Shown in pieces: positions 7,449 through 17,237 of a stretch of DNA of 64,000 nt (within the stretch, counting starts at the first letter, position 1; each line of letters opens with the position of its first letter). The stretch spans positions 1 to 64,000 of the forward strand of contig JAQZBR010000002.1 of assembly GCA_029237775.1 (NCBI GenBank). Direction: 5' to 3'. This stretch comes from Bacteroidota bacterium. GTDB taxonomy: Bacteria; Bacteroidota; Bacteroidia; 2-12-FULL-35-15. Below the pieces are notes generated by a model. It saw only the letters and a list, made by a program, of their open reading frames with translations. It was not told the origin of the DNA and made no database searches. A program made the position numbers and the translations under genes.

Positions 7449-8611
7449 GGATCCTTGTAATTTTATCACGCGTTCCTTACCCTCTTGAAAAAGGGGATAA
7501 GCTTCGTGCATTTAATCAGATAAAGGAGCTCTCGAAAAAACATCAGATAATATTGTTTGCTCTCAATGATGGCAAGCTAGATGAAAATGCGGTGGCAGAA
7601 TTAAAGAAATACTGTGTGGTAATTTCTATCATGCCGCTTCCCAAACAAACCGTTATTAAAAACCTTGTCCGTTCATTTCTCTCCGGTCTGCCAATGCAGG
7701 TTGGATATTTTTATTTCAAAAAGGCGCAAGATAAATTGGATCAGATCGTTCAGAAGCATAATCCTCAGCATATCTATTGTCAGCTCATCCGAACAGCTGA
7801 GTATGGCAAACGTTATTCAAAAATTCCGAAAACATTGGATTACATGGATGTTTTTTCGAAAGGAATTGAGCGCAGAAAAGAAACAGATCCTTTCTACATG
7901 AAGCCGGTGCTTATGATGGAGCACAAAAGGCTTTTAAGGTATGAGGGGAAGATTTTCTCTGCTTTTAATAATAGAACAATTATTTCAGCTCAGGATCGCG
8001 ATCTGATCCCTCATTCTGATAAACAGCTTATAACTGTGGTGCCAAATGGTGTTGATACTGAGTTTTTCAAGCCCCTGGCCAGGAAGAAAGAATTCGATCT
8101 TCTTTTTAACGGAAACATGAATTATCCTCCGAATGTTGAAAGCGTTGAGTTTCTGGTCGAGACGATTATGCCCTATGTGTGGAGCAAAAGGCCGGAAACG
8201 AATGTACTTATTTCCGGTGCGACTCCTAATGCAAAAGTTCTGGCGCTTGCATCAGATAAAGTGATCATCAGCGGTTGGGTCGATGACGTCCGTGAAAATT
8301 ACGCAAAAGCCAGAATGCTGGTGGCACCAATGCAGATCAGTATCGGTTTGCAAAATAAATTACTGGAAGCAATGGCGATGCAGATTCCGTGTGTAACCTC
8401 TTCACTTGCAAATAATGCACTTAAAGCCAAGTCCGGTGAGCAGATCATGGTGGCTGATACTCCAGAACAATATGCCCTGATAATTCTGGATCTTTTAAAT
8501 AACGAAGCGAAAGCACGGCAAATTGCATTAAGCGGACATCGTTATGCAATAGATAATTTTAACTGGAAAAGCACTACTTCAATTCTTGAAGAACTGATAG
8601 TAAAAAAATAG
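7445..8611 (+). CDS. Glycosyltransferase, GT-B fold (GT4-like)
   Basis: The 388-residue product begins MRILVILSRVPYPLEKGDKLRAFNQIKEL and has the donor-site segment MQISIGLQNKLLEAMAMQIPCVTSSLANNAL near 298-325. The layout resembles the family of exopolysaccharide sugar transferases that includes PEP-CTERM associated enzymes, although nothing else of that system is present. It is a distant homologue of the preceding glycosyltransferase, probably an old tandem duplication. Its TAG stop overlaps the terminator hairpin of the convergent gene. Confidence 0.87.
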   Translation: MRILVILSRVPYPLEKGDKLRAFNQIKELSKKHQIILFALNDGKLDENAVAELKKYCVVISIMPLPKQTVIKNLVRSFLSGLPMQVGYFYFKKAQDKLDQIVQKHNPQHIYCQLIRTAEYGKRYSKIPKTLDYMDVFSKGIERRKETDPFYMKPVLMMEHKRLLRYEGKIFSAFNNRTIISAQDRDLIPHSDKQLITVVPNGVDTEFFKPLARKKEFDLLFNGNMNYPPNVESVEFLVETIMPYVWSKRPETNVLISGATPNAKVLALASDKVIISGWVDDVRENYAKARMLVAPMQISIGLQNKLLEAMAMQIPCVTSSLANNALKAKSGEQIMVADTPEQYALIILDLLNNEAKARQIALSGHRYAIDNFNWKSTTSILEELIVKK

Positions 8612-8643: not shown

Positions 8644-9060
8644 CTATTTTTTGTGGCCCATCATCCATAAGCTCCAATCCTTATCGAACTTATACCATGT
8701 GCCACTTGGCGCTTCCCATTTCCATTCAGGAACATCCGACCATGTTTTACCTCCGTCAGCTGACCATTTTAACATTTTAGCATCAACAATTTTCAGCCAT
8801 TTACCATCTTTGTCCTGCCACATTCCGTCCTTCACTGCTTCCCATTTCTTTCCATCCATCGACCACCAAAGGCTAGCATCTTTCATATCAAGTTTATACC
8901 AGACTTTTTTACCATCATGCATTCCATCCCATGTTCCTTCTTTAGATTTCATCCACTCATCAGAAACAGTAATCACTTTTGTAATACTGGTTTTTGTTTC
9001 AGCATTTACATTTACAAATGTAAAGCAGGCAAAACCTGCCAATAAGATCATCTTTTTCAT
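8644..9060 (-). CDS. Tryptophan-rich secreted repeat protein
   Basis: The 138-residue product has a Sec signal peptide (MKKMILLAGFACFTFVNVNA). The mature part is composed of about three imperfect units of the form GxW..DGKxWYKLD...LxWSxDGGKxW. It contains 15 tryptophans in 138 residues (about 11 percent) and many Lys/Asp; Cys is confined to the signal peptide. The repeats recall short W-rich beta-propeller or beta-prism blades, but I do not recognise a named family. The start codon is 272 bases from trpE, divergently oriented, with the trp leader between them. Function unknown; it is likely periplasmic or outer-surface. Confidence 0.8.
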   Translation of the reverse strand: MKKMILLAGFACFTFVNVNAETKTSITKVITVSDEWMKSKEGTWDGMHDGKKVWYKLDMKDASLWWSMDGKKWEAVKDGMWQDKDGKWLKIVDAKMLKWSADGGKTWSDVPEWKWEAPSGTWYKFDKDWSLWMMGHKK

Positions 9061-9157
9061 TTTGTTTATTTTTTAGGTTAATATCCTTACTTACGAGGAA
9101 AAGGAAGCCCTGGATTTTATAAGAATCAATTAATATTTAATTAAAAGCGGATTTATA

Positions 9158-9189
9158 TTGCAGATTAAATTTTTTAATATTTATATTTG
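9158..9189 (+). promoter_or_regulatory. Promoter of the trp operon
   Basis: TTG at 9158-9160 is followed after 21 bases by TATATTTG at 9182-9189, matching the Bacteroidota pattern TTG-N(17-23)-TAnnTTTG. The leader-peptide ATG at 9199 is only nine bases beyond the box, so the transcript would be leaderless or nearly so. Confidence 0.75.
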
Positions 9190-9198
9190 TCGCGATAA

Positions 9199-9258
9199 AT
9201 GAAAAAGCAATTATTAAATAACAGCTGGTGGTGGTCGTACTCTCTGAGAACGGCATAG
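9199..9258 (+). CDS. trpL: trp operon leader peptide (19 aa, three consecutive Trp codons)
   Basis: The ORF reads MKKQLLNNSWWWSYSLRTA and ends in TAG at 9256-9258. Three tandem TGG codons occupy 9226-9234. It sits between the promoter and a terminator hairpin that precedes trpE, exactly where an attenuation leader peptide belongs. Ribosome stalling on the TGG codons when charged tRNA-Trp is scarce would cover the first strand of the 1:2 hairpin. The symbol is used by functional analogy with enterobacterial trpL; there is no implied homology. Confidence 0.88.
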   Translation: MKKQLLNNSWWWSYSLRTA

Positions 9259-9299
9259 GTATTTATTTAATAAATCAAACTATATTATGACGCCCGTTC
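9236..9299 (+). promoter_or_regulatory. Attenuator: 1:2 hairpin and competing 2:3 antiterminator
   Basis: Segment 1 (9236-9242, CGTACTC) pairs with segment 2 (9246-9252, GAGAACG) with one A-A mismatch. Segment 2 extended by one base (9248-9253, GAACGG) can instead pair with CCGTTC at 9294-9299, which is the 5' arm of the terminator. The two structures are mutually exclusive. Segment 1 begins two bases after the last Trp codon, so a ribosome stalled there would mask it, free segment 2 and block the terminator. Confidence 0.75.
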
Positions 9300-9324
9300 A
9301 ACCAATGAACGGGCGTTTTTATTT
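9290..9324 (+). terminator. trp attenuator terminator (3:4 hairpin)
   Basis: An 11-bp perfect stem, ACGCCCGTTCA (9290-9300) and TGAACGGGCGT (9306-9316), encloses a five-base loop and is followed by TTTTTATTT. It ends nine bases before the trpE ATG, so it can only act as a conditional terminator for the operon. Confidence 0.92.
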
Positions 9325-9332
9325 CCTTTAAG

Positions 9333-10736
9333 ATGAAATACAGCTTTACAACAACATACAAAAAATTGCTTGCCGATACCATTACTCCGGTTAGTATTTA
9401 CCTTAAGCTTAGGGATAAATTCCCGAATTCCATATTGCTTGAGAGTTCAGACTATCATGGAAACGAGAACAGTTACTCATTTATCTGTTGTAAGCCGGTT
9501 GCTGGAATTGTAATTGAGAATGAACAGATCAGGTTAAGCTTCCCTGACGGCCGGACCGAATTGAAGAACATTACTAAAAATGTTAATGTTGCGGATGAAA
9601 TCAGCGCTTTCTCAAATAATTTCATCATGAATAATGTCGGAGAGAAGGTAATTAGCAATGGCCTGTTCGGGTATATTGGTTATGATTCGATCCGCTATTT
9701 TGAGGACATATCACTGAATGCTGAATCCAAAGACGATAAAAAGATCCCGGACGTAATTTATAATGTATATGAATACGTCATTGCCATTGACCATTTCCGG
9801 AATGAACTTTATATTTTTCAGAATTTATATCAACAGTTAGCTAATGAAGGTATCGGTTTCATTGAAGGAATAATTACGAATAAAAGTTTGCCCGCGTTCA
9901 GATTTAAGCTGAATGGAGAAGAACAATCAAATTTTAACGATCAGGAATTTCTTAAAATTATCGAACAAGGGCGCAAACATTGTAAACGAGGCGATGTTTT
10001 TCAAATGGTATTATCACGTGAGTTCTCGCAAGCTTTTCAGGGAGACGACTTTAATGTTTATCGTGCATTACGTTCAGTGAATCCCTCTCCCTATTTGTTT
10101 TATTTCGATTATGGTAACTTTAAATTATTCGGTTCTTCACCTGAAGCACAGCTTGTGATAAAAAAAGATATGGCTTCGATCCATCCGATCGCTGGAACTT
10201 TTAAGCGCACCGGGGACGATGAAGCAGATGCTGCATTGGCCGATATGCTGAAAGCTGATCCAAAGGAAAATGCTGAACACGTGATGCTTGTTGATCTTGC
10301 ACGTAATGATCTTAGTATAAATTGCACTGACGTGCGCGTTGAAATCTTCAGGGAAGTTCAATTCTATTCACATGTTATACATTTGGTATCAAATGTTAAA
10401 GGGAAGATGAAAAACAAATCAACTATGAAAGTGGTTGCTGATACATTTCCTGCTGGAACCTTGAGTGGTGCGCCAAAATATAAAGCCATGCAGCTGATCG
10501 ATAAGTACGAGAACGGAAGGCGCAGCTTCTACGGAGGATGTATAGGTTACATGAGTTTTGAGGGTGATTTTAATCATGCGATCATGATAAGATCTTTTTT
10601 GAGTAAGAACAATAATCTATTCTACCAGGCCGGTGCCGGTGTCGTGGAATCGTCAAATGAACAAAGTGAACTGAATGAAGTGAATAATAAGCTTGCTGCT
10701 TTAAAAAAGGCCTTACTATTTGCTGAAACAATTTAA
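9333..10736 (+). CDS. trpE: Anthranilate synthase component I
   Basis: The 467-residue product converts chorismate to anthranilate with ammonia supplied by TrpG. The LLES motif at 35-38 in the N-terminal domain is the tryptophan-binding feedback site in characterised TrpE proteins, and it is intact. The chorismate-binding domain shows GDVFQMVLSREF, NPSPYLFYF, PIAGTFKR, AEHVMLVDLARNDL, FPAGTLSGAPK and the C-terminal GGCIGYMSFEGD block. It is the first structural gene of the trp operon, nine bases after the attenuator. Both allosteric inhibition and transcription attenuation are therefore likely. Confidence 0.97.
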   Translation: MKYSFTTTYKKLLADTITPVSIYLKLRDKFPNSILLESSDYHGNENSYSFICCKPVAGIVIENEQIRLSFPDGRTELKNITKNVNVADEISAFSNNFIMNNVGEKVISNGLFGYIGYDSIRYFEDISLNAESKDDKKIPDVIYNVYEYVIAIDHFRNELYIFQNLYQQLANEGIGFIEGIITNKSLPAFRFKLNGEEQSNFNDQEFLKIIEQGRKHCKRGDVFQMVLSREFSQAFQGDDFNVYRALRSVNPSPYLFYFDYGNFKLFGSSPEAQLVIKKDMASIHPIAGTFKRTGDDEADAALADMLKADPKENAEHVMLVDLARNDLSINCTDVRVEIFREVQFYSHVIHLVSNVKGKMKNKSTMKVVADTFPAGTLSGAPKYKAMQLIDKYENGRRSFYGGCIGYMSFEGDFNHAIMIRSFLSKNNNLFYQAGAGVVESSNEQSELNEVNNKLAALKKALLFAETI

Positions 10737-10758
10737 AAATTAATTCAAATTTTTATAA

Positions 10759-11325
10759 ATGAAAATTCTCGTCTTCGATAATTATGACAGCTTCACTTAT
10801 AATCTCGTACACTACCTGGAAAAGGTGACGGATGCGGAAATAGAAGTGTTTCGTAATGATAAAATAGGCATTGATGAAATCGACAGGTTCGACAAGATCC
10901 TTTTATCTCCAGGGCCCGGTGTGCCTTCTGAAGCAGGTATTCTGATTGAGCTTATTAGAAGATACGCTTCTACTAAAAGCATTTTTGGTGTATGCCTCGG
11001 ACAGCAGGCTATAGGAGAAGCTTTTGGTGGCTCCCTGATAAATCTGAATAAAGTGTTTCATGGAATATCAACTCCTGTGAACATAGTAAAACAGGACGCT
11101 TTGTTTCGTGAGATTCCCCAAACATTTAATGTTGGCCGCTATCATTCATGGGTGGTGAATACACTTGACTTTCCGGGGGAACTGGAGATAACTGCAGTTG
11201 ATGGGGAAGGACAGATAATGGCGCTGCGTCATAAGCGCTTTGATGTCCGTGGAGTGCAATTTCATCCTGAAAGTATCCTGACGGAAAATGGTTTACAGAT
11301 CATTAAAAACTGGGTGAATTCATAA
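10759..11325 (+). CDS. trpG: Anthranilate synthase component II (glutamine amidotransferase)
   Basis: This 188-residue class I glutamine amidotransferase starts MKILVFDNYDSFTYNLVHYLE and has the nucleophile Cys79 in GVCLGQQ, and His169 and Glu171 in QFHPES. It hydrolyses glutamine to feed ammonia to TrpE. There is a 22-base gap after trpE, and its TAA shares bases with the trpD start (TAATG), so the two are translationally coupled. It could also serve PabB, as in some bacteria; no pab gene is in the window. Confidence 0.97.
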   Translation: MKILVFDNYDSFTYNLVHYLEKVTDAEIEVFRNDKIGIDEIDRFDKILLSPGPGVPSEAGILIELIRRYASTKSIFGVCLGQQAIGEAFGGSLINLNKVFHGISTPVNIVKQDALFREIPQTFNVGRYHSWVVNTLDFPGELEITAVDGEGQIMALRHKRFDVRGVQFHPESILTENGLQIIKNWVNS

Positions 11326-12320
11326 TGAAAGCTATACTCACAAATTTATTCGATCATAAGTCTCTTACCAGGGTGGAAGCCCGTGAGGTGCTTATGAATA
11401 TATCCTCGGGAAAATATAATCCATCCCAGGTAACTGCTTTTATGTCGGTTTACCTGATGCGCGCTATCACTGTTGAAGAACTTTCAGGATTAAGGGATGC
11501 AATGATGGAAATGAGTATCCAGCCCCAATTCGATACACACTCAACTATCGACATTGTCGGGACTGGTGGTGACGGAAAAGATACATTTAATATTTCTACG
11601 TTGTCGTGTTTTGTTGTTGCCGGAGCAGGATACAAAGTAACTAAGCATGGTAATTACGGAGTTTCATCTGTGAGCGGCTCTTCAGATGTTCTCGAAGCGC
11701 TTGGATATAAATTTACAAATGATAATGATGAATTGAATTCGCAATTGGATAAAGCGGGAATCTGTTTTCTGCATGCACCCTTGTTTCATCCCGCAATGAA
11801 AAGTGTTGCTCCTGTCCGAAAAGAACTTGGAGTGAGAACTTTTTTTAATATGCTAGGCCCGGTGGTAAATCCGTGCAAGCCGAAACTCGCTATGCTGGGT
11901 GTTTATAGCCTTGAGATGGCGCGACTTTATAACTATCTGTTACAAAGTGAAGAAATGAATTATTCCATAGTGCATTCCTTCGATGGCTATGACGAGATCT
12001 CGCTTACATCTGCCTTTAAGCTTATTTCAAAAAATAAAGAGATGATCCTTGAGCCCGAAATGTTAGGCTTGAAAAAGTTGAAGGCCTCAGATCTTCACGG
12101 AGGATCATCAGTTGAATCTGCAGCGCAGCTCTTTAAAGACATACTAAATGTAAATGCGACAATCGCTCAGCAAGACGTTGTGATCGCGAATTCTGCTATT
12201 GCGATCCAAACAATTGAACCTGCTTTTTCTATCGGCAAATGTGTCGGTCTGGCGCAAGAATCTCTTAAGTCAAAAGCGGCACTAAATGTATTTAATAAAT
12301 TAATAAATGATCAAGAATGA
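11325..12320 (+). CDS. trpD: Anthranilate phosphoribosyltransferase
   Basis: This 331-residue enzyme transfers phosphoribose from PRPP to anthranilate. The PRPP-binding loop GTGGDGKDTFNIST is at 79-92 and the KHGN motif at 107-110. Length is normal for the family. Start and stop overlap the neighbouring genes (TAATG with trpG, ATGA with trpC). Confidence 0.97.
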   Translation: MKAILTNLFDHKSLTRVEAREVLMNISSGKYNPSQVTAFMSVYLMRAITVEELSGLRDAMMEMSIQPQFDTHSTIDIVGTGGDGKDTFNISTLSCFVVAGAGYKVTKHGNYGVSSVSGSSDVLEALGYKFTNDNDELNSQLDKAGICFLHAPLFHPAMKSVAPVRKELGVRTFFNMLGPVVNPCKPKLAMLGVYSLEMARLYNYLLQSEEMNYSIVHSFDGYDEISLTSAFKLISKNKEMILEPEMLGLKKLKASDLHGGSSVESAAQLFKDILNVNATIAQQDVVIANSAIAIQTIEPAFSIGKCVGLAQESLKSKAALNVFNKLINDQE

Positions 12321-13138
12321 ATATCCTCGACAAGATAATTGCAAATAAGCATAAGGAAGTGAGTGAAAGGAAATCTTTGTATCCGGTTAAATTACTTGAA
12401 AGAACAGTGTATTTCAATTCTCCTTCAGTTTCCCTCAACAGGTATTTGCAGAGAGATGACAAGCATGGTATCATTGCTGAATTCAAAAGAAAATCTCCTT
12501 CAAGGGGTATCATTAATAAATATGCTTCCGTAGAGCGAACCTCCATCGGCTATATGCAGGCCGGAGCAAGTGCATTAAGCATATTGACCGACTCGGAATT
12601 CTTTGGCGGTAAAAATGAAGATCTTACTGAAGCACGTAAATTCAATTATTGTCCGATACTTCGTAAAGAATTTGTGATCGATGAATATCAGATCATTGAG
12701 GCAAAAGCGATCGGAGCTGATGTGATCCTCTTGCTTGCAAATGTACTCGATCAGTCTCAATTAAAAATATTTACGAAGACCGCCCGTGATCTGGGATTGG
12801 AAGTGTTGCTGGAAGTTCGTGACAAAAATGAGCTGAGTTCTCTTAATCAGTATGTGACTGCAGTCGGAGTTAATAACCGTGATCTTAAGACTTTTGAAGT
12901 TAATCTTTCACAATCTTATGAATTATCCTCACTTATCCCCAAAGAGTTCGTAAAGATCTCGGAAAGCGGAATTAATTCGGCCAAAGATCTCTTTGATCTA
13001 AAGCAAGCTGGCTTCCAAGGATTCTTGATGGGTGAAGCTTTCATGAAAAACGGTAGACCCGAAATGGCCTGTGCAGAATTTATCAAAGAAGTAAATGCTT
13101 ATTCATCTAAACTAATAAAGAATGAACCTCACTTATAA
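12317..13138 (+). CDS. trpC: Indole-3-glycerol phosphate synthase
   Basis: The 273-residue TIM-barrel enzyme closes the indole ring from CdRP. It shows IIAEFKRKSPSRG at 52-64 with the catalytic lysine, LRKEFVIDEYQI, EVRDKNEL, VGVNNRDLKTF and SESGI. It is monofunctional, since trpF is a separate gene. It overlaps trpD by four bases and the following GNAT gene by 17 bases. Confidence 0.97.
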   Translation: MNILDKIIANKHKEVSERKSLYPVKLLERTVYFNSPSVSLNRYLQRDDKHGIIAEFKRKSPSRGIINKYASVERTSIGYMQAGASALSILTDSEFFGGKNEDLTEARKFNYCPILRKEFVIDEYQIIEAKAIGADVILLLANVLDQSQLKIFTKTARDLGLEVLLEVRDKNELSSLNQYVTAVGVNNRDLKTFEVNLSQSYELSSLIPKEFVKISESGINSAKDLFDLKQAGFQGFLMGEAFMKNGRPEMACAEFIKEVNAYSSKLIKNEPHL

Positions 13139-13616
13139 AAAGGCAACAGAAAACGATCTGCCGATCATTTCATTTCTTGCCGAAAAGATTTGGAAGCGCC
13201 ATTACGTTGATATAATCTCCGGTGAACAAATTGAGTACATGCTGAATAAAATGTACTCATTGGCAAGTTTACGGGATCAGATGCAAAATGGTCATCAATT
13301 CACGCTTGCGTATTTCGATGGCTCACCGGTAGGTTACATGTCTTTAAGTACCAGAGATGAAAAGAATTATTTTCTTCATAAGTTTTATGTTGAAGTGGAT
13401 GAGCAGTCTAAAGGAATTGGAACTCAATTCTTGAATTATGTGATAAGTTCGTTGAATGACCCGAAAACAATCGAGCTTACTGTCAACCGCCAAAACTTCA
13501 AAGCTGTCAACTTCTATTTTAAAAATGGATTTATAATACGTGAAGTTGCAGATTTTGATATCGGAAATGCGTTTGTTATGAATGATTTTATAATGGTAAA
13601 AAAAATAAAAAAGTAA
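13122..13616 (+). CDS. GNAT-family N-acetyltransferase inside the trp operon
   Basis: The 164-residue protein has the GNAT fold: N-terminal ATENDLPIISFLAEKIW, a central beta strand LHKFYVEVDEQSKGIGTQFLNYV that holds the acetyl-CoA loop (Q-S-K-G-I-G-T), and the C-terminal NFYFKNGFI. It overlaps trpC by 17 bases and abuts trpF, so it must be co-expressed with tryptophan synthesis. The substrate is unknown; a pathway metabolite or an amino acid is possible (inference). Confidence 0.9.
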   Translation: MNLTYKKATENDLPIISFLAEKIWKRHYVDIISGEQIEYMLNKMYSLASLRDQMQNGHQFTLAYFDGSPVGYMSLSTRDEKNYFLHKFYVEVDEQSKGIGTQFLNYVISSLNDPKTIELTVNRQNFKAVNFYFKNGFIIREVADFDIGNAFVMNDFIMVKKIKK

Positions 13617-14221
13617 TGAAACTAAAAGTTTGCGGGTTAAAATATCCGGATAACATTAAACAGATTGCTGAGCTGAATCCTGACTATATGGGCTTTATTT
13701 TTTATGAAGGTTCAAAGCGTTTTGTGGGAAAGGATTTTGTTATGCCGGAGATCTCTGATAAAATTCAAAAATCAGGGGTGTTTGTAAATGCACCGTTGGA
13801 ATATGTCCTAAAGAATGTAAAAAAGCACAAACTTGATCTGGTTCAGCTTCATGGAGACGAAAGTCCGGAATACTGTTCTGAAGCTGCAAAACATATTCCG
13901 GTTGTGAAAGCTTTCGGTATTGATGAACATTTTAATATGGATGAGCTGAATAGTTATAAGCCATGCTGTAAATATTTTCTGTTCGACAACAAAACAGAAA
14001 AGTACGGTGGTAGCGGCAAGCCTTTTAACTGGGAACTGCTCAAGCAGTATGATAACTCAGTTCCATATTTTATCGCGGGTGGAATGGATCTGGAAAAATT
14101 CAGGATCGTAGAGCAGCTGGCTTTACCTGTTTTTGGAATTGATGTGAACAGCAAGTTCGAGATCAAACCCGGTTATAAGGACATCATTAAAGTGATGCAG
14201 ATAAAAAACAACATAAGATGA
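13616..14221 (+). CDS. trpF: Phosphoribosylanthranilate isomerase
   Basis: This 201-residue TIM barrel has the general base Cys6 in LKVCGLK, VQLHGDE at 76-82, the general acid Asp124 in FLFDN, and the phosphate-binding AGGMD and GIDVNS segments. It performs the Amadori rearrangement of PRA. It follows the GNAT gene with a one-base overlap and overlaps trpB by four bases. Confidence 0.96.
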
Positions 14222-15408
14222 AATTTGAAGTAAATGAACACGGCTATTACGGAAATTATGGAGGAGCATATATCCCTGAAATGCTTTTCCCCAATGTACA
14301 GGAGCTGAAGGAGAAATATCTTTTGATTATGAATGATGCTTCCTTTAAGGAAGAATTTGATCTATTGCTAAAAGATTATGTAGGACGCCCATCGCCCTTG
14401 TATTATGCTTCGAGGCTTTCAGTGCATTATAAAACAAAAATTTACCTGAAGCGTGAAGATCTTAATCATACCGGAGCTCATAAGATCAATAACACGCTAG
14501 GGCAGATCTTATTGGCAAAACGACTTGGCAAAACGAGGATCATTGCCGAAACAGGTGCCGGTCAGCACGGTGTTGCAACAGCCACTGTATGCGCTTTAAT
14601 GGGACTGAAGTGTATTGTTTACATGGGTGAGATAGATATTGAAAGACAAGCACCTAATGTAGCGAGAATGAAGCTGCTTGGCGCTGAAGTCATCCCGGCA
14701 ACAAGCGGAAGTAAGACACTTAAAGATGCAACCAATGAAGCTATCCGTGACTGGATCAATAATCCGGTAGATACTTATTATATTATCGGCTCTGTTGTCG
14801 GTCCACATCCATATCCCGATATGGTAGCGAAATTCCAGAGTGTGATAAGTGAAGAGATTAAAACGCAGCTTAAAGAGAAAACAGGAAAAGAAGATCCTGA
14901 TTTTGTTATCGCCTGTGTAGGTGGCGGAAGTAATGCTGCAGGCGCTTTTTATCATTTCCTGGATTCAGGGAATGTTAAGCTGATCGCTGTTGAAGCTGCC
15001 GGAAAGGGGGTTGATAGCGGGCATTCAGCTGCGACCAGTATTTTGGGCAAACCAGGGATCATTCATGGGAGTAAAACACTGCTCATGCAAACATTTGATG
15101 GGCAGATCACTGAGCCCTACAGTATTTCTGCGGGACTTGATTATCCCGGAGTAGGCCCAATCCATGCACATTTATTTGAAACAGGCCGCGCAACTTTTGC
15201 AAGTATCACAGATGAAGAGGCATTAGAAGCGGCCTATCTTCTGTGTGAGCTGGAAGGTATTATTCCTGCTTTGGAGAGCGCACATGCATTTGCTCATTTG
15301 AAATATTTGAATGCAAAGCCGGATGAAATTGTTGTTATTAATTTATCGGGACGTGGAGACAAAGACCTCGCAACTTATATCAGACATAAAGACCTTGCAA
15401 ATGAATAA
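14218..15408 (+). CDS. trpB: Tryptophan synthase beta chain
   Basis: This 396-residue PLP enzyme condenses indole with serine. It has the Schiff-base Lys89 in [12 protein letters not shown], Glu111 in AETGAGQHG and the phosphate-binding loop GGGSNA near 236. It begins [18 protein letters not shown] like TrpB1, the form that associates with TrpA. Its last eight bases overlap trpA. Confidence 0.98.
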
Positions 15409-16174
15409 GCTCAATCAATTGTTTAGTAAAAAAAATAAGAACATTCTGTCCGTATATTTTACTGCCGGTTTCCCAAAATTGGATGATACAGCTGAAATCC
15501 TCTCAGAATTATTAACCAATGGCGTTGATATGATCGAAGTAGGAATGCCCTTTTCGGATCCACTTGCTGATGGCGCTGTGATCCAACGAAGCAGTGAGCA
15601 AGCTCTGCAAAATGGTATGAGTATCGCAAAGTTGTTTGACCAGTTAAAAAATAATTCGATAAAATCTTCCTCCGCGGTACTTCTGATGGGGTATCTGAAT
15701 CCTGTTCTTCAATATGGTATGGAAAAATTTTGTAAAGATGCATCAGGTTTAGGAATCTCAGGTGTTATAATTCCGGACCTGCCTTTGCATGAGTATACTC
15801 TGCACTATAAAGAGTTATTTGAAAAATATGATCTGGCAAATATATTTCTTATCACTCCTCAAACTTCTGAATCCCGTATCAGACTTATTGACGATTGTTC
15901 ATCGGGGTTTATATATGTTGTTTCTTCTGCAAGTACTACCGGTGCAAAAGGTCAGATCGAACAATCGCAGGAAGAGTATTTTGAACGCATACGGTCTATG
16001 AATTTGAAGAATCCTTTAATGATCGGTTTCGGAATATCTGATTCAAAAACTTTTACAAAAGCATGTGAATATGCAAATGGTGCTATCATCGGAAGCGCTT
16101 TTGTAAAGGCTCTTTCAGGTAGCAACGACTTAAAGGCGAGTGTGAATAAATTCATTACTGAGATCCGTAACTGA
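15401..16174 (+). CDS. trpA: Tryptophan synthase alpha chain
   Basis: The start at 15401 ([14 protein letters not shown]) gives a family-typical 257 residues; the frame extends further upstream, inside trpB, but without homology. Catalytic Glu46 lies in [11 protein letters not shown] and Asp57 in PLADGAVIQ; the phosphate site GFGISD and the VSSASTTGA loop are present. It cleaves indole-3-glycerol phosphate and channels indole to TrpB. Confidence 0.97.
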
Positions 16175-16235
16175 TCCAATTCACAAACAACTAATCCCTA
16201 ATTACCAATTCCTAACTACCATCAACCAATTATAG

Positions 16236-17237
16236 ATGATCATTCAATTAGAAGAAAAAATAAAAAGCACTGATAAAGAAAATATCCTTTCCTCAGTAAA
16301 TGCTATTGGTTATAAAATCACTGATGTGAAAACCCAGGCGGGAAATTATCTCGTGTGTATCGGAAAGAATGAATTTGATATCAGGCTAGTTGGAAGCTTG
16401 CATGGAGTGAAAGACGTTCACAGGGTTTCAGAAGCATATAAGCTTGTATCATCGAAATGGAAAGTTGGTTCATCTACTATTGATCTTGGGGATGATGTGA
16501 AAATAGGGGATGGAAAGTGTGCTGTTATGGCCGGCCCTTGCAGTATAGAAAGTGAGGAGCAGGTGGAAAAGATTGTTGCCCACCTGGTACAAAACAATAT
16601 TAAGATCATGAGGGGAGGAGTGTTTAAACCCCGCAGCTCTCCTTACGCTTTCAGAGGAATGGGAATTGAAGGATTAAAAATGTTTCATCGCATTTGCAGG
16701 CAAAATGGAATTAAAATTATTACGGAGGTCATGCAGGTTTCTCAAATAGCAGAAATGCATGAGTATGTTGATGTTTTTCAGGTAGGTGCCCGGAATTCTC
16801 AAAACTTTAATCTGCTCGATGAATTAGGAAAAGTGGACAAGGCAATTTTAATAAAAAGAGGAATGAGCGGAACTATTGACGAACTGTTGCAATCGGCTGA
16901 ATATATCTTTTCAAACGGAAATGAAAAACTTATGCTTTGTGAAAGAGGAATCAGAACCTATGAAAATGCCTATCGCAATACCTTCGATATTAACGCAATT
17001 CCCATTCTCAAAGAAAAAACACATCTACCTGTGATTGCAGATCCTTCCCATGGAATTGGAATCCGTGAGCACGTGCCTGTGATTGCTTTGGCTGCAATGA
17101 TGGCCGGAGCTGATGGAGTTATTTATGAGGTTCATGAAAAACCGGAGGAAGCTGTCAGTGATGGACAACAGACATTGAATTTTTATGAATCAGAACACTT
17201 AATCAGACGACTGAATGCTAATATTCAGCTAAAATAG
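16236..17237 (+). CDS. aroF: DAHP synthase (type I-beta) with N-terminal ferredoxin-like domain
   Basis: This 333-residue enzyme makes the first shikimate intermediate from PEP and erythrose 4-phosphate. Residues 1-70 form a ferredoxin-like regulatory domain as in the Thermotoga-type enzymes; the barrel starts at the GPCSIES motif (100-106, metal ligand Cys102) and includes RGGVFKPRSSPYAFRG, QVGARNSQN, CERG and DPSHGIG. It lies 61 bases after trpA without a visible terminator, so it probably belongs to the trp transcript and shares its attenuation, coupling precursor supply to tryptophan need. Confidence 0.93.
   Translation: MIIQLEEKIKSTDKENILSSVNAIGYKITDVKTQAGNYLVCIGKNEFDIRLVGSLHGVKDVHRVSEAYKLVSSKWKVGSSTIDLGDDVKIGDGKCAVMAGPCSIESEEQVEKIVAHLVQNNIKIMRGGVFKPRSSPYAFRGMGIEGLKMFHRICRQNGIKIITEVMQVSQIAEMHEYVDVFQVGARNSQNFNLLDELGKVDKAILIKRGMSGTIDELLQSAEYIFSNGNEKLMLCERGIRTYENAYRNTFDINAIPILKEKTHLPVIADPSHGIGIREHVPVIALAAMMAGADGVIYEVHEKPEEAVSDGQQTLNFYESEHLIRRLNANIQLK

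Follow-up and report, generated by a model that had tools for sequence, protein, structure and literature searches.

A predicted tryptophan leader-peptide attenuator before the trp operon of a Bacteroidota bacterium and its counterparts upstream of trpE in the phylum

The tryptophan biosynthesis operon of a bacterium of the phylum Bacteroidota (assembly GCA_029237775.1) is very probably controlled by a ribosome-mediated transcription attenuator, in which translation of a short leader peptide with three consecutive Trp codons would determine whether transcription terminates before trpE. The parts of this device are present in the window (the whole stretch of 64,000 nucleotides analyzed, contig JAQZBR010000002.1) and in relatives, its pairings are specific, and three ribosome states were folded computationally. 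Trp attenuation had been put forward in an original prediction, and it is supported by Trp codons kept in relatives, by the specific pairings and by the absence of the leader in two congeners where trpE is absent. The leader region comprises the following features:

9158–9160, + strand: TTG, candidate −33 element with a 21-nt spacer to the −7 box (direct reading and box scan)
9182–9189, + strand: TATATTTG, −7 box for the housekeeping sigma factor of Bacteroidota, with a predicted transcription start at about 9194
9199–9258, + strand: leader peptide ORF MKKQLLNNSWWWSYSLRTA, stop codon TAG at 9256–9258 (direct reading; kept in relatives)
9211–9221, + strand: 5' arm of the outer base stem, pairing with 9263–9273 (folding; swap test, z −8.2)
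9226–9234, + strand: three consecutive Trp codons (TGG), the sensor (direct reading; WWW in 111/153 leader ORFs)
9234–9254, + strand: 1:2 hairpin (folding; swap test, z −8.9)
9248–9253, + strand: strand 2, GAACGG (direct reading, swap test and ensemble folding)
9263–9273, + strand: 3' arm of the outer base stem, directly after the stop codon (folding; swap test)
9290–9316, + strand: 3:4 intrinsic terminator hairpin, ACGCCCGTTCA-ACCAA-TGAACGGGCGT (folding; terminator scan)
9294–9299, + strand: strand 3, CCGTTC, antiterminator partner of strand 2 (direct reading, swap test and ensemble folding)
9316–9320, + strand: T run (T5) of the terminator (direct reading)

A leader-peptide trp attenuator is recognized by a short ORF in which Trp codons follow one another, placed ahead of a trp biosynthesis operon, by an intrinsic terminator between this ORF and trpE, and by competing 1:2, 2:3 and 3:4 pairings, of which 1:2 and 2:3 stay complementary as leaders diverge; all of these were found, the last by swap tests and folding. 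The 19-codon ORF with its WWW run and the TTG-N21-TAnnTTTG promoter can be read directly where they had been described. Translation of the ORF is probable, to judge from its conservation and that of its Trp codons, and transcription would start near 9194, a position placed from the box location (−12 to −5) reported for Flavobacterium psychrophilum (PMC9723704). The terminator has 11 perfect base pairs, as originally claimed, or 12 when one G-U pair is counted; it folds with −20.5 kcal/mol (z −6.9; 0/200 shuffles equally stable) and is listed independently by a terminator scan. The competing pairing of GAACGG with CCGTTC is likewise present. The 1:2 hairpin exists too, but it does not begin two bases after the last Trp codon as had been proposed: folding pairs 9234–9238 with 9250–9254, so that its first paired base is the final one of the third Trp codon, the earlier placement having been up to three bases off. 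By itself this hairpin is no stabler than chance in the window (−7.9, z −0.3). It is enclosed by the outer stem (9211–9221 with 9263–9273), which had been missed earlier and has a counterpart in relatives.

The region downstream (9333–17237) holds a complete trp operon in the order trpE-trpG-trpD-trpC-GNAT-trpF-trpB-trpA-DAHP synthase:

9333–10736, + strand: trpE, encoding anthranilate synthase component I and first of the regulated genes (TIGR00564 as best family, with 416.2 bits below the cut-off of 517.7)
10759–11325, + strand: trpG (TIGR00566, over cut-off)
11325–12320, + strand: trpD (TIGR01245, over cut-off)
12317–13138, + strand: trpC (NF001377, over cut-off)
13122–13616, + strand: GNAT acetyltransferase within the trp operon (family search)
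13616–14221, + strand: trpF (best family NF002298, below cut-off)
14218–15408, + strand: trpB (TIGR00263, over cut-off)
15401–16174, + strand: trpA, start set at 15401 (TIGR00262, over cut-off)
16236–17237, + strand: DAHP synthase (aroG-like), probably the final gene of the unit (TIGR01361 and NF006421, over cut-off)

The GNAT gene lies between trpC and trpF here; two congeners that lack a trpE match have it next to trpG. Upstream, the operon adjoins a divergent gene (8644–9060, − strand) for a probably secreted protein of 138 residues, 15 of them Trp (10.9%), which has no family over cut-off; of 40 other genomes searched, two contain relatives of this gene; neither has a trpE match, and both have trpG beside the gene. 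The whole genome (G000, 96.6% complete) shows no match for hisG, ilvD or prephenate dehydratase, searches for which each succeeded in 13 or 14 of 14 control genomes; the organism thus appears to be auxotrophic for His, Ile/Val and Phe yet retains Trp synthesis.

Counterparts of the leader were sought upstream of trpE in three sets of genomes. TrpE had a match in 19 of 59 relatives (E ≤ 1e-60, own genome included) and in 90 of 295 genomes of the class (E ≤ 1e-100); at least 594 matches came from named genomes, and the best 80 of these were taken. One trpE of the class set (G090) was left out, as its contig starts 18 bases before the match, and among the resulting 175 loci, window included, four with less than 100 nt upstream (L009, L030, L156, L164) were dropped, leaving 171. 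According to record titles the named set covers Flavobacteriaceae, Sphingobacteriaceae, Chitinophagaceae, Saprospiraceae and Bacteroidales; some of its genera belong to Cytophagales. Sampling was aimed at one class. The sets overlap (L043 and L135 show the same leader), so locus counts are not independent, and statistics were computed on 81 non-redundant leaders.

A Trp-rich short ORF, defined by at least two Trp within five codons, stands upstream of trpE in 153 of the 171 loci (window included), and in 141 of the 171 it is accompanied by a terminator-like hairpin before trpE, against 2.7 expected from dinucleotide shuffles. The class set contributes 75/89 loci with a leader ORF (70/89 also with a terminator) and the named set 74/78 (67/78). 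Conserved Trp-codon ORFs had been named as a check on the attenuator, and the longest Trp run in the 153 ORFs is WWW in 111, WW in 28 and a single Trp in 14. Within the genus of the window six of seven trpE loci with upstream sequence carry a leader, with a peptide near MKxQLLNNxWWWSYSxRTA (L008 is the one without); between groups the peptide outside the Trp run varies widely. These counts indicate that Trp peptide-leader attenuation is the usual arrangement before trpE in the sampled Bacteroidota.

Conservation of the pairings was assessed with swap tests, in which one arm is paired with the partner arm of every other leader (81 non-redundant leaders, 2000 permutations); composition is kept and no alignment is needed. 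Pair counting on a MAFFT alignment (A2, 21 leaders) had been rejected since strand 3 is misaligned there between subgroups, hence the alignment-free test. Native partners were better than swapped ones by 1.9 kcal/mol for the outer stem (z −8.2), by 3.6 kcal/mol for 2:3 (z −12.1) and by 2.0 kcal/mol for 1:2 (z −8.9), with 0/2000 permutations as good in each case, so the stem pairings are specific in relatives. Controls gave much smaller values for the outer arm with sequence past the terminator (z 0.1), upstream of the ATG (z −1.6), with its reversed partner (z −1.3) or with strand 3 (z −1.0), and for strand 2 with reversed strand 3 (z −2.1; 45/2000). Less strict swap tests on 151 and 141 leaders had the same outcome. 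The native partner was among the best 5% in 21/81 leaders for the outer stem, 24/81 for 2:3 and 15/81 for 1:2, against 4 expected; not every leader shows every helix.

The competition between these pairings was followed by ensemble folding with strand 4 absent, for an RNA bearing no ribosome, a ribosome on the first Trp codons or a ribosome at the stop codon. The ribosome footprint used for masking runs from −14 to +15 from the P site. In the window the pair probability of GAACGG with CCGTTC is 0.01 without ribosome, 0.75–1.00 with the ribosome stalled on the Trp codons and 0 with the ribosome at the stop, where 3.5 expected pairs still link strand 3 to other unmasked leader bases. Across the 81 leaders the expected 2:3 pairs number 2.44, 10.0 and 1.1 in the same three states, the low value at the stop being in part a product of the mask, which covers strand 2; stalling raises 2:3 in 78 of the 81. 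Shuffling the 5' half of the leader increases 2:3 in the ribosome-free state from 2.44 to 8.03 expected pairs (native lower in 71/81), so the function of the 5' half is to keep strand 2 hidden.

The proposed course of events is as follows. The transcript initiated at about 9194 would carry, almost at its 5' end, the leader peptide with its three Trp codons. If charged tRNA-Trp runs short, the ribosome would stall on 9226–9234, disrupting the outer stem and covering strand 1, strand 2 would pair with strand 3, the terminator would not form and RNA polymerase would enter trpE. With plentiful Trp the ribosome would reach the stop codon at 9256–9258 and cover strand 2, allowing the 3:4 terminator to form. 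In the absence of a ribosome the outer stem and 1:2 would hide strand 2, and termination would again be the default. Since 2:3, with its 6 bp, is weaker than the terminator (−20.5 kcal/mol), antitermination must be kinetic, which is also accepted for E. coli trp.

An additional function in trans, besides the action in cis, is improbable, though it has a precedent: the terminated leader RNA or its peptide could act like rnTrpL/peTrpL of Sinorhizobium meliloti, the rhizobial counterpart being described as a leaderless dual-function RNA (PMC10117765), and plentiful Trp would always lead to release of a short RNA that is nearly leaderless and ends at the terminator; against this, the peptide beyond the Trp run is highly variable between groups. 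The two explanations that would replace attenuation fare much worse. If the hairpin merely terminated an upstream transcript and the short ORF were a chance reading, a strong terminator in an intergenic region would be expected, as found, but the nearest upstream gene on the + strand ends at 8611, about 680 bases before the hairpin, with a − strand gene (8644–9060) intervening, and neither the retention of Trp-rich ORFs at this place, the specificity of the antiterminator pairings nor the joint occurrence of leader and terminator (141/171 loci, 2.7 expected) fits such a terminator, which is thus very unlikely. Scarcely credible as well is a ligand-binding riboswitch, T-box or protein-sensing leader with an incidental ORF: a structured leader with a terminator is compatible with riboswitch-type control and PyrR is the top-scoring Rfam model at 9150–9350 (27.2 bits, cut-off 54), but none of the 42 weak Rfam matches there reaches its cut-off, no T-box is among them, the sole riboswitch model (THF-II) scores 13.9 bits against 41, and what relatives have retained is an ORF whose Trp codons are in frame.

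To our knowledge, Bacteroidota genes lack Shine-Dalgarno sequences and leaderless mRNAs are rare in the phylum. Of the 153 leaders, 115 have a full TAnnTTTG box in the 60 nt before the leader start codon (5% in mononucleotide shuffles). The gap between box and start codon has a median of 8 nt; it is at most 10 nt in 72 of these leaders, exactly 4 in 17 and never below 4, and the 43 of 115 with longer gaps include several from Flavobacterium. With the box positioned as in F. psychrophilum (−12 to −5), the AUG falls at +1 when the gap is 4, and the gap of 9 in the window predicts a 5'UTR of 5 nt. Among control long ORFs 16 of 345 have a full box, with a median gap of 31. Gaps of at most 10 nt occur in 35 of 52 non-redundant full-box leaders versus 2 of 16 control ORFs (Fisher p = 0.00014), the control being small and relying on first-ATG starts, with the full box nearest the start codon used in both sets. 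Many leader transcripts are thus predicted to be leaderless or nearly so, because the box is so near the start codon. Genome-wide, 5.5% of F. psychrophilum mRNAs are leaderless and the median 5'UTR length is 24 (PMC9723704), and about 3.7% of 5'UTRs are under 10 nt in Bacteroides thetaiotaomicron (PMC7366714).

On balance, the box positions favor, by a modest degree, the view that trp attenuator peptides of Bacteroidota are preferentially translated from leaderless or nearly leaderless transcripts, with the AUG at +1 to about +7. If so, the start codon would emerge first and allow immediate ribosome loading on the nascent RNA, and the phylum would offer a widespread leaderless design of a classical attenuator together with evidence of transcription-translation coupling. 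With so short a predicted 5'UTR, leaderless initiation can be tested directly on a regulatory peptide.

Attenuators of this kind are already known in Bacteroidota, and their spread is wider than the catalogued Rfam family shows. Lopatovskaya et al. (2010) may already list cases from Bacteroidetes. The E. coli trp leader has two Trp codons and a Shine-Dalgarno leader. It shares with the window a Trp-codon peptide, mutually exclusive 1:2, 2:3 and 3:4 pairings and a terminator before trpE, whereas the window has three Trp codons, a stem reaching upstream of them and a predicted 5'UTR of about 5 nt; its Rfam model (RF00513, Trp_leader) scores 21.5 bits in the window against a cut-off of 41. The trpL/rnTrpL system of S. 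meliloti, from another phylum, also has a Trp leader peptide and is without a 5'UTR (PMC10117765); its leaderless start is known, whereas the nearly leaderless start in the window is predicted. Closer in phylogeny, a 2021 article on F. psychrophilum, which belongs to the same phylum, reported "strong clues" that leader peptide attenuation acts ahead of amino-acid operons; its main text does not contain the words tryptophan or trpE (PMC9723704).

The nearest known relative is the Rfam family RF01692 (Bacteroid-trp, "Bacteroidete tryptophan peptide leader RNA"), which dates from 2010 (Weinberg et al., PMC2864571). It shares with the window the phylum, the position as a leader of trp genes and an AUG-started ORF with Trp codons; its consensus also has a long imperfect stem that opens ahead of the Trp codons and closes past the stop, and the 5' part of a terminator at the 3' end. 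Compared by eye, the window shows the same order of parts (AUG, Trp codons, stem, terminator start). As the consensus already contains an equivalent stem, the outer stem was dropped as a candidate new element. At the gathering score RF01692 has no match in the whole window; the leader scores 20.6 bits (span 9179–9298, E 4.4) and lies below the curated cut-off of 49. Strands 2 and 3 differ as well, being GAACGG/CCGTTC in the window and of the CGTGA/TCACG type in Flavobacterium-type loci. By the curated test the window is not a member of RF01692; it would work in the same way and is most simply taken as a diverged form. With strict filters the model exceeds its cut-off in 10 of 295 class genomes (14 at E ≤ 0.001; in G306 the match is on a different contig from trpE), and it matches 2 of 20 named loci (20 of the 80 were tested) and 0 of 20 other leader loci, five congeners included. 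Annotation of many genomes could improve, given leaders well beyond the reach of the Rfam model. The spread of attenuation also argues for transcription-translation coupling, because the ribosome must follow the polymerase closely, and the phylum concerned departs from E. coli in its initiation.

The script scan found no qualifying leader ORF in 18 of 171 loci and no terminator in 12 of the 153 loci with a leader ORF. By eye, several trpE genes without a leader follow an apparent trpB end (L075, L082–L084, L165, L166, L171, L175), and L171, counted among the 153, has a chance ORF inside the apparent trpB. RF01692 matches 1.2–1.3 kb further upstream in four class genomes (G106, G139, G170, G200) are consistent with the leader standing before trpB there. 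Further inspection by eye showed leader-like ORFs with one or two isolated Trp codons in L013, L038, L059 and L087, apparent script misses in L119, L120, L121, L124, L129 and L137, and no leader visible upstream of trpE in L008, L026, L033, L049 and L079. Weak hairpins are included among the 141 (L099, −2.1; L101, −5.0; L122, −6.4).

Two congeners, G018 (64% complete) and G005 (96%), have no trpE match. In both, the glycosyltransferase gene, the gene for the Trp-rich protein, trpG and the GNAT gene are still in place, as is trpF in G018; inspected by eye, the stretch from the Trp-rich gene to trpG shows no leader. This absence ties the leader to trpE rather than to the neighborhood; we infer that the absence of trpE itself is a loss and not the ancestral state. 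The two reduced trp loci (L199 in G018, L200 in G005) retain a trpG that may serve folate synthesis.

Four loci (L148, L150, L155, L117) show two Trp-rich leader ORFs in series, at about −340 to −40 from trpE, and a terminator-like hairpin follows each ORF, although in L150 and L155 the hairpin after the downstream leader was seen by eye only; for L117, L150 and L155 the script had picked the upstream one. A stricter re-scan recovered only L117 of these four, plus L065, which was rejected as its upstream ORF was judged to be a chance one. A pattern search for the tandem upstream leader in 395 genomes gave two sites, both, by eye, apparently in unrelated coding sequence. The four loci are possible tandem trp attenuators, and the upstream leader contains INTIWLPWWGLL in a Prolixibacteraceae locus and in both Draconibacterium loci.
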